64,000 nt of DNA from contig NZ_WVNW01000001.1 in the NCBI RefSeq assembly GCF_013179285.1, positions 1,240,001 through 1,304,000 of the forward strand, written 5' to 3'. The notes below the pieces were generated by a model. That model had not been told where the DNA came from. It did not search any database and was given only the letters and a program-made list of their open reading frames with translations. The DNA is from Roseobacter sp. HKCCD6576-2 (GTDB lineage: Bacteria > Pseudomonadota > Alphaproteobacteria > Rhodobacterales > Rhodobacteraceae). Positions 59,029-60,779 of this stretch are shown here, in pieces. Both the position numbers and the translations under genes were made by a program. Numbering within the stretch: position 1 is the first letter of the stretch; each line of letters opens with the position of its first letter.

Positions 59029-60264
59029 ATGACGCATGTGCCGAACTATTTGGATCAGTATTGGCCGATCACCCAGGATTTCGGGGTCATCGACGCGCCG
59101 ATCAACGACGTGACCGCTGCCTATATGAGCTGGTGGTCGCTGACCGGCAAACCCGCGACACGCCAGGATGTTCCGGGAGGGCTCGGCGCGGCTTTGGAGG
59201 CGTTGTTCCCGCTCAACAAGCGGCTAGACCGCAGGATTTTGGTGCCTTGCGCTGGCAATCGCACGGCATTTTTTCAGAACGGGTTTGATGGCTCCGCACC
59301 AGCGATGACGATGCGCTCGCTGGCGCGCAAGCTGCGCGTTCGGGCGTATAGAATTTGCCGCAAGTCCGGGCAATTCACTGCGCCTGAAACCGTGTTGGAG
59401 ATTTATGCGCCGAAACAACTTGGCGGGGATGACACAGGGTTCCGGCGGAGTCTTCGGGCCTGGAAAGAGGAGGGCGTGTGGCATTTTGCCGAGCGCGGGA
59501 CGCCTCTTCGTTTCGAAGCGGCAGAGCAGCCGGAGGCGGGGTTCGACCCGGATATGTTAGGGCGTTACTTGGCGCATCTTGGGCTAGACGCCCTGTCGGA
59601 TGCGTTCTTCGATGGCTCAACAGACACAGCCGCGCAGCTGTTCCAAACCAACACCACCCGTGCCGATACGCCGGGTTATTCGATGCTCGACGTCCTGAGT
59701 GGCGCGCCCTGGGCCGGGAGCGCCAAAAAATACATGCTTAGCGGTGCGCGGTGGTTAGCTGCCGCGGCCAAACCCGACCGGATCGGTGATGGGGCCATTA
59801 TCCCTATCGGTGATCCCGGTACGGAAGCTGCGCCGCCCACCGCGGCCATTGCCCACCGGATCGGTGATTGGTCCGTTATCCGCATCGGTGATGCCCGATC
59901 GGATCGGGGTGAAGCTGCCATTGCCGCCGCCGCGACCAAACCCGCCCGGATCGGTGATCGGGCCGTTGTCGGCATCGGTCAGCCCGGTTCTGGAGGAGCG
60001 CAATCCTCCGCGTCCGACGCCGCCCGGATCAGTGATCGGGCCATTATCTCGATCTGTAACGCCGGTGCCAATCGTGGCTGGCACAACGACACAGCCGCTC
60101 AACCCAAGGCCGACCGAACCGATGCCAAACCCCTGCAGGATGCGGCGTCTGCTGAGGCCGCGCCGTGTTTCAATCTGATCATCGTCCAAGCTGGTCAGCT
60201 TGGGAGTTTTGTCTTCTTTGCCGTCTTTCATAGTCCCACCTCTGGCTATTGCTGCCGAAGCTGA
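59029..60264 (+). CDS. Conserved hypothetical protein, C-terminal half antisense to a Tat repeat gene
   Basis: Residues 1 to about 240 look like a genuine soluble domain (YWPITQDFGVIDAPINDVTA, RRILVPCAGNRTAFFQNGF, MTMRSLARKLRVRAYRICRK, HFAERGTPLRFEA). From about 243 to 411 the frame runs antisense through the minus-strand repeat gene at 59755-60231 and becomes a low-complexity RIGD/IGDPG mirror of its repeats, with no homology expected. Either the ancestral stop near 59755 was lost and the repeat gene supplies a long open antisense frame, or the two genes truly overlap. The domain itself is not recognised. Confidence 0.6.
   Translation: MTHVPNYLDQYWPITQDFGVIDAPINDVTAAYMSWWSLTGKPATRQDVPGGLGAALEALFPLNKRLDRRILVPCAGNRTAFFQNGFDGSAPAMTMRSLARKLRVRAYRICRKSGQFTAPETVLEIYAPKQLGGDDTGFRRSLRAWKEEGVWHFAERGTPLRFEAAEQPEAGFDPDMLGRYLAHLGLDALSDAFFDGSTDTAAQLFQTNTTRADTPGYSMLDVLSGAPWAGSAKKYMLSGARWLAAAAKPDRIGDGAIIPIGDPGTEAAPPTAAIAHRIGDWSVIRIGDARSDRGEAAIAAAATKPARIGDRAVVGIGQPGSGGAQSSASDAARISDRAIISICNAGANRGWHNDTAAQPKADRTDAKPLQDAASAEAAPCFNLIIVQAGQLGSFVFFAVFHSPTSGYCCRS
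59755..60231 (-). CDS. Tat-exported lipoprotein with four TD-x-DNG repeats (copy B)
   Basis: A 158-residue protein. The signal has the twin-arginine motif LSRRRILQGFG and a lipobox GLGLSGC (Cys47), so it should be a Tat-exported lipoprotein. From residue 57 to the end it consists of four units of 26, 30, 26 and 20 residues with consensus G-x-TD-x-DNGPITDP-x-G-x-GRGG, joined by Arg/Ser-rich linkers. The D-x-DNG-xxx-D spacing recalls calcium loops. ATG 60231 is chosen for AGAGGTGGG upstream. A paralogue lies 114 bases upstream. No function known. Confidence 0.8.
   Translation of the reverse strand: MKDGKEDKTPKLTSLDDDQIETRRGLSRRRILQGFGIGSVGLGLSGCVVVPATIGTGVTDRDNGPITDPGGVGRGGLRSSRTGLTDADNGPITDPGGFGRGGGNGSFTPIRSGITDADNGPITDPVGNGRGGRRSFRTGITDRDNGPITDPVGFGRGS
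59758..60063 (-). repeat. Four coding tandem repeats in copy B
   Basis: The DNA shows repeated words such as GGATCGGTGAT and CGGGCC every 78-90 bases. The repeats are in frame and encode the G-x-TD-x-DNG units, ending at the stop codon. Confidence 0.8.
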
Positions 60265-60344
60265 GGCCAACCGGGTCGCCGTCCCTCGTCAGAACACAAA
60301 AAGGGACGGGTCGGGTGCGACCGCAGATGTGCCTCTGTCGTCGC

Positions 60345-60779
60345 TCACCCGCGGCCGTTGCCGCCCGGATCAGAGCAATTGCCGCCGTCCGCATCAGTGA
60401 TGCCGCTGGCGGCGTTGCGCGGGTTGCCACGGCCCGCGCCGCCCGGATCGGTCCAGGAGCCGTTGTCGCGATCAGTATAGCCTGCACGCTGTTGACGGCC
60501 ATCGCCGCGGCCATTGCCGCCCGGATCGCGCCAGGTGCCATTGTCTTGGTCTGTCACGCCAGAACCATAGGCGCGGCAGTAGCCGCGGCCACGACCGCCA
60601 GGATCAGTGATCGCGCCATTATCGTTATCCGTGCCCGCCTCGGCAGTTCCTGCGCTGACACCAACGATCGTCGCGCCAAGCGCCGCAGTTCCAGCACCAC
60701 GCATCATGCCGCGTCGGCTGACGGAGGTGATAATATCGCTATCGGAAAGGGATGGTTTCTTGTCGTCTTTATCGCTCAT
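60345..60779 (-). CDS. Tat-exported protein with four TD-x-DNG repeats (copy A)
   Basis: A 144-residue protein with a twin-arginine motif SVSRRGMMRGAG and a signal peptidase I site after GTAEA (about residue 48). The whole mature part is four units (spacing 25, 26, 26): GTDNDNGAITDPGGRGRG, GVTDQDNGTWRDPGGNGRG, GYTDRDNGSWTDPGGAGRG and GITDADGGNCSDPGGNGRG. Cysteines 68 and 135, in the first and last units, could pair. GGGAG lies upstream of ATG 60779. It is the paralogue of copy B but not lipidated. Function unknown. Confidence 0.8.
   Translation of the reverse strand: MSDKDDKKPSLSDSDIITSVSRRGMMRGAGTAALGATIVGVSAGTAEAGTDNDNGAITDPGGRGRGYCRAYGSGVTDQDNGTWRDPGGNGRGDGRQQRAGYTDRDNGSWTDPGGAGRGNPRNAASGITDADGGNCSDPGGNGRG
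60348..60635 (-). repeat. Four coding tandem repeats in copy A
   Basis: Repeated words of the type GCCCGGATC and CCATTGTC recur every 75-78 bases in frame, coding for the four G-x-TD-x-DNG units that make up the mature protein. Confidence 0.8.

Follow-up and report, generated by a model that had tools for sequence, protein, structure and literature searches.

Asp-rich Tat-signal repeat proteins of Roseobacter sp. HKCCD6576-2 as probable exported substrates of a dedicated JmjC_2 oxygenase

What purpose might be served by two small neighbouring genes whose exported products are made almost wholly of one short, Asp- and Gly-rich repeat? This question is raised by a 64-kb stretch of DNA from Roseobacter sp. 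HKCCD6576-2 (contig NZ_WVNW01000001.1, positions 1,240,001 to 1,304,000; hereafter the window), in which two genes, here called A and B, each encode a signal for twin-arginine translocation (Tat) followed by four repeats, A as a lipoprotein and B as a soluble protein with two cysteines. This gene arrangement and the repeat content of the mature parts, both proposed earlier from the DNA letters (the original prediction), were recovered from the sequence and by a pattern scan. In the best overall explanation, to which a probability of about 0.62 is given, A and B would be exported substrates of a dedicated JmjC_2 hydroxylase dependent on Fe(II) and 2-oxoglutarate, as judged from sequence.

The core unit comprises 17 residues (T-D-x-D-x-G-x3-D-P-x-G-x-G-R-G), with DGG in place of DNG in repeat 4 of gene B. 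Across the six frames of the window, the pattern D-x-D-x-G-x3-D-x2-G-x-G-R-G occurs four plus four times, always in A and B, and it never arises when the residues of either mature part are shuffled 10,000 times. As Tandem Repeats Finder detected no array with the period of the unit in the DNA, the repeat is maintained at the protein level. The frames are conserved in relatives and under purifying selection, ten comparisons with orthologues, over A and B together, giving pS values of 0.56–0.68, pN values of 0.095–0.276 and dN/dS ratios of 0.08–0.29. Likewise, the repeats do not belong to any characterized family among those searched: Pfam yielded no family for either protein at E values up to 1, the RTX, EF-hand and thrombospondin type 3 models included, NCBIfam matched with formate_TAT alone (on the signal region, far under the cut-off and leaving the repeats uncovered), and a PDB sequence search with gene B returned nanobodies only (E 0.048 and 0.41). 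The open-licence literature, with subscription papers and preprints outside the scope, holds no description of the repeat family or of its pairing with an enzyme, and in the excerpts retrieved with four unit strings only other proteins were matched. The family is real, and the original observation was right and understated. In one scan, named genomes contributed 13 loci, from Boseongicola, Rhodophyticola, Roseicyclus, other Alphaproteobacteria and three delta/Myxococcota metagenome-assembled genomes; taken together, all loci provided 43 distinct repeat proteins of two or more units, which carry 2–14 units each and partly use a short form of the unit (T-D-x-D-x2-D-x2-G-x-G-R).

A recurring partner of these repeat genes is a JmjC_2 protein of about 390–410 residues, encoded beside them at five distant loci (L058, L060, L061, L062 and L065). 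All five enzymes scanned match PF08007 at 90–103 bits (curated cut-off 22). Their closest PDB relatives by sequence are NO66 (E 1e-32), MINA53 (2e-26), YxbC and a YcfD-like enzyme, the best Foldseek matches are NO66 (3e-27), MINA53 (8e-23) and YcfD (2e-15), and Foldseek as well as phmmer place the partner enzyme closer to NO66 and MINA53 than to YcfD. The Fe(II) ligands H146, D148 and H209 (HxD...H) are kept in all 24 repeat-linked enzymes, and so are K161, N132 and Y134. By homology, the partner enzyme is assigned to a 2-oxoglutarate oxygenase subfamily of JmjC_2 that is kin to NO66, MINA53 and YcfD. These ribosomal oxygenases (ROX; YcfD/RoxA, NO66/RIOX1, MINA53/RIOX2) share the PF08007 domain with it and act on ribosomal proteins according to passages in two papers (PMC4295552, PMC6006756), whereas the clade described here is linked by genome context to exported repeat proteins almost without His. 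The genome of the window has one gene for the partner enzyme (G000:C1:178786-180183, minus strand), divergent from a third, two-unit repeat gene; some 1.1 Mb separate this locus from A and B.

Two side observations concern this enzyme locus. First, the partner enzyme in this genus (L080 6787-8184, and those of the relatives L017, L018, L019 and L071) carries a TDSD/TDAD-like, His-rich insert, e.g., GTDSDTDAAPKPATDSD, which resembles the repeat, is absent in G578 and G603, and may act as a pseudo-substrate or be modified by the enzyme itself. Second, the enzyme-adjacent repeat genes (L080 8307-8597 and those of other Rhodobacteraceae) share a layout of two units and a C-terminal Cys, many also having CPRG; this sets them apart from the window pair and possibly marks a disulphide-linked or regulatory form.

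Enzyme and repeats occur together at every taxonomic range surveyed. Among 61 relatives, both are found in the identical eight genomes and neither in the other 53, including G005 of the same genus; among 248 family members, they are again confined to an identical set of eight, each from a different genus, with a ninth enzyme match (G707) of 20 bits. In 385 genomes of the class, 60 have a JmjC_2 match at E 0.001, and the scores split into 13 matches of 387–599 bits (12 genomes) and a remainder of at most 186 bits. Here, the repeat profile matches 12 genomes and the strong enzyme is present in 12, with 11 in common, while none of the 48 genomes having only weaker JmjC_2 matches has a repeat match. 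In 299 genomes of the phylum, six have the strong enzyme and seven the repeats (E 0.001), five being common to both. Of the exceptions, G314, counted in both surveys, carries the enzyme without a profile match but, on inspection, has a divergent 12-unit repeat gene that overlaps the enzyme gene, as predicted. G377 in the class as well as G634 and G643 in the phylum were rejected as repeat carriers, their weak profile matches covering the signal peptides of unrelated Tat-signal proteins without repeats. Fisher tests, which ignore relatedness and use overlapping samples, give 3.4e-10 (relatives), 2.4e-19 (class) and 6.5e-9 (phylum).

The genes are also neighbours. A repeat gene adjoins the enzyme gene for 13/13 strong matches of the class, and equally in 13/13 genomes lying outside both search alignments (G238, G267, G274, G280, G314, G578, G603, G738, G797, G837, G858, G871 and G891), where adjacency in G238 rests on an identical overlap of 141 bases between two contig ends. 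Under a strict adjacency rule, 17 of the 24 linked enzymes compare with 0 of 28 other JmjC_2 enzymes, the seven misses having been settled by inspection; under a loose rule the counts are 23/24 and 1/28, with just 1–1.5 kb of flank at most of the control loci. This link spans Rhodobacteraceae, other Alphaproteobacteria and Myxococcota, and is regarded as strong computational evidence for a substrate relation, a step which, taken alone, appears highly probable. The patchy distribution (8 of 248 family members, each of another genus) could also be explained by a mobile module whose enzyme and repeat genes have no enzyme–substrate relation. This is very improbable, since additional repeat genes reside at unlinked sites, namely the window pair, four contigs of G039 and six of G267, with one strong enzyme match in each genome, and since searches of phages, plasmids and viral contigs with gene B or alignment A1 as query found no relative.

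Further support is derived from a sequence motif that precedes the twin arginine in most repeat proteins, namely L-x-[DANES]-x-x-I (in the following, the LxDxxI leader). Inspection by eye shows it beside 18 enzymes and not beside the other six (G039, G175, G274, G280, G314 and G361), which form a single clade (support 91). In the underlying quick maximum-likelihood tree, with the enzymes of the 248-member family sample outside it, the 24 repeat-linked enzymes fall on one side of a branch and the 28 others on the opposite side (Shimodaira–Hasegawa-like approximate likelihood ratio test, 89, under the 95 mark). Comparing 17 with 6 enzymes (L072, which ends at a contig end, was left out), the ratio of between-group to within-leader-group identity amounts to 0.78 for the catalytic and 0.78 for the dimerisation region, vs 0.50 for the C-terminal winged-helix region. 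In an AlphaFold2 model of the L065 enzyme, having a mean predicted local distance difference test score (pLDDT) of 72, the C-terminal region consists of strands followed by three helices (pLDDT 75–94). Model and co-divergence would fit a winged helix that reads the leader in the way of a RiPP recognition element (RRE; RiPP, ribosomally synthesized and post-translationally modified peptide), a compatibility which is no proof, as the divergence is a single event on the tree.

The alternative that the repeats bind metal unmodified, like RTX or thrombospondin type 3 repeats, with an enzyme that is merely co-regulated or ribosome-directed, is improbable. It would accommodate the Asp-rich D-x-D spacing and the ribosomal substrates of the enzyme's known kin, and modification of the repeats is itself deduced from sequence. 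The co-divergence of leader and winged helix, the restriction of the link to one enzyme clade (0 of the 48 class genomes with only other JmjC_2 matches have a repeat match) and the taxonomic span of the link speak against it. RTX, thrombospondin type 3 and EF-hand loops are Asp-rich metal-binding repeats, and the unit of A and B shares with them Asp at D-x-D spacing within a short repeated unit; it differs by lacking the GGxGxDxUx motif of RTX and the position-12 Glu of EF-hands.

In the mechanism proposed here, the enzyme would recognize the precursor, in most lineages via the LxDxxI leader, on its RRE-like C-terminal winged-helix domain. It would then oxidize one residue per repeat while the precursor is in the cytoplasm, which provides both Fe(II) and 2-oxoglutarate; the target is most likely an Asp within the D-x-D-x(2-5)-D core. 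Tat would subsequently export the modified protein post-translationally to the periplasm, where B would be free, A would be held by its lipid anchor, and the protein of one relative carries a peptidoglycan-binding domain as a fusion. The (hydroxy)Asp clusters might act there, most plausibly as metal ligands. The family, the co-occurrence and adjacency of the enzyme, its conserved catalytic residues and the co-divergence of leader and C-terminal domain are computed results, whereas the substrate role of the repeats, the identity of the oxidized residue, leader binding and metal binding are inferred.

Asp is ranked first as the target for the reason that GRG is lost in two enzyme-linked members, G363 C15 (repeat stretch GSDYDPNDPIGGGSDTDPVDPIGEG, without Arg) and G238, where D-x-D-x-x-D-like cores are kept, so that the D-x-D...D core is common to all; Arg is ranked second. 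His was rejected on composition: the repeat stretches contain about 25% Gly, 14% Asp and 10% Arg, few hydrophobics, and only 0.5% His, 0.3% Glu and 0.2% Lys, which makes His hydroxylation as catalysed by NO66 and MINA53 unlikely.

Several points weigh against the proposed substrate relation or the choice of Asp. The co-occurrence partly reflects common descent, and several of the surveyed genomes contributed rows to the search alignments, seven of the twelve class genomes having supplied enzymes. The window pair itself does not adjoin the enzyme gene and would hence have to be served in trans. AlphaFold2 yields no fold for the repeats of gene B (18 sequences; mean pLDDT 37.6, predicted template modelling score 0.11). 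Finally, in 138 distinct long units, with D1, D3, G5 and G12 imposed by the search pattern, not only D9 (98%) but also R15 (94%) and G16 (87%) are conserved, so Arg is a candidate target as well. Oxidation of the Arg of GRG by the same enzyme, as by YcfD on Arg81 of L16, could be argued further from the Arg found in 85% of 28 short units and from the Arg C-3 hydroxylase activity of this bacterial relative, given in part of PMC4295552. It is nevertheless considered unlikely, as both enzyme-linked members without GRG speak against it and the enzyme is closer to NO66 and MINA53 than to YcfD.

With respect to export, both proteins have the layout expected of Tat substrates, as judged by eye: a twin arginine, then hydrophobic residues, then either a lipobox or a signal-peptidase site. 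B has SRRGMM and a signal-peptidase-like AEA site, with four units and two Cys after that site; A has SRRRIL, an LSGC lipobox and four units. In alignments of repeat proteins (10 and 18 rows), R22 and R23 are invariant. Export in folded form, a premise of the original prediction, is not supported in view of the poor model and of a repeat composition that leaves no hydrophobic core. A Tat signal need not mean folded cargo here, because Tat tolerates unstructured hydrophilic stretches of 100–120 residues, as stated in a section of a review (PMC6708511). The simpler reason for Tat may be one of order, in that the 2-oxoglutarate-dependent step in the cytoplasm would come first and export is post-translational.

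Use of the repeat proteins in the cell envelope is suggested by the lipobox of A and of Myxococcota repeat proteins (by eye), together with the C-terminal PG_binding_1 domain of L027 1234-2043 (G184 C63; E 1.6e-18), the sole domain fusion noticed in the family. These features, which point to a retained protein, bear on another alternative, namely a RiPP-like precursor in which each repeat would serve as a core, to be modified and released by cleavage as a small peptide, for instance a metallophore. The leader motif and the multiple cores would agree with it, and JmjC hydroxylases occur in RiPP pathways, as seen in excerpts on BipG (PMC12707348) and PbsQ (PMC12257519). Since, in addition, inspection of 25 loci by eye revealed no conspicuous protease or peptide transporter among the neighbouring genes, this alternative is improbable. 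Accordingly, from the precursor-like reading of the original prediction, modification gains support by the dedicated oxygenase travelling with the family, whereas cleavage between the units does not. The likeness to the BipG and PbsQ pathways and to RRE-like domains fused to PF08007 lies in a JmjC enzyme beside a leader-bearing precursor; those pathways use short precursors, Phe-Arg-Phe cores and several enzymes, in contrast to one recurring enzyme, a Tat signal, 2–14 repeats and envelope anchors in the repeat system. According to one sentence of PMC12710340, the bacterial proteins most closely homologous to RRE-fused JmjC proteins of eukaryotes are found in RiPP-like contexts, and the section of that paper on these homologues names no repeat or Tat protein.

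A metal-related role may be considered by analogy, as beta-hydroxy-Asp serves as iron ligand in some siderophores such as cupriachelin (part of PMC10484230); calcium-like binding by the repeats is possible from their sequence. Only tentatively, a more specific scheme is put forward, a bacterial parallel to the collagen-style hydroxylation that precedes export. In it, a dedicated ROX-family oxygenase, guided to its substrate by the leader, would make beta-hydroxy-Asp in every DxD repeat, and the protein then carried by Tat to the periplasm, the outer membrane or the cell wall would be an oxygen-dependent polymer that binds metal at multiple sites.

In animals, collagen is hydroxylated prior to export, and the order of modification and export proposed here, if true, would resemble this by analogy. 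Moreover, bacterial NO66/MINA-like JmjC enzymes would gain a non-ribosomal, exported, multi-site substrate, a post-translational modification route would be added to Tat export, and the requirement that a 2-oxoglutarate-dependent step precede export would explain the use of Tat. With two small genes at hand, the substrate of this enzyme clade becomes open to direct testing. Their features are compiled in Table 1.

Table 1 Features of genes B and A in the window (positions refer to the 64-kb stretch)
Feature	Position	Strand	Basis
Gene B, soluble Tat-signal protein, 144 aa, four repeats, Cys68 and Cys135	60345..60779	-	Sequence
Gene B, N-terminal region and Tat signal, residues 1-48, ending in ..GTAEA	60636..60779	-	By eye
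Gene B, leader motif LSDSDI, residues 11-16, ahead of twin arginine	60732..60749	-	Sequence, alignment
Gene B, twin arginine, residues 22-23	60711..60716	-	Sequence, alignment
Gene B, repeat 1, TDNDNGAITDPGGRGRG	60582..60632	-	Pattern scan
Gene B, repeat 2, TDQDNGTWRDPGGNGRG	60504..60554	-	Pattern scan
Gene B, repeat 3, TDRDNGSWTDPGGAGRG	60426..60476	-	Pattern scan
Gene B, repeat 4, TDADGGNCSDPGGNGRG	60348..60398	-	Pattern scan
Gene A, Tat-signal lipoprotein, 158 aa from ATG, four repeats	59755..60231	-	Sequence
Gene A, N-terminal region, Tat signal and lipobox to Cys47 (LSGC)	60091..60231	-	By eye
Gene A, leader motif LDDDQI, residues 15-20	60172..60189	-	Sequence, alignment
Gene A, repeat 1, TDRDNGPITDPGGVGRG	60007..60057	-	Pattern scan
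Gene A, repeat 2, TDADNGPITDPGGFGRG	59929..59979	-	Pattern scan
Gene A, repeat 3, TDADNGPITDPVGNGRG	59839..59889	-	Pattern scan
Gene A, repeat 4, TDRDNGPITDPVGFGRG	59761..59811	-	Pattern scan

For gene A, an alternative start at an upstream TTG would give 171 residues. Between genes B and A lies a weak, terminator-like stem-loop (60309-60322, minus strand); as two such loops are found in the region and 1.1 are expected in shuffles, this loop alone is no evidence. On the plus strand, an open frame of 411 residues (59029-60261) begins like a plausible protein and then runs antisense to gene A. A Pfam scan of this frame gave no match, and its similarity to L054-L056, judged from match length, lies within the part antisense to the repeats.
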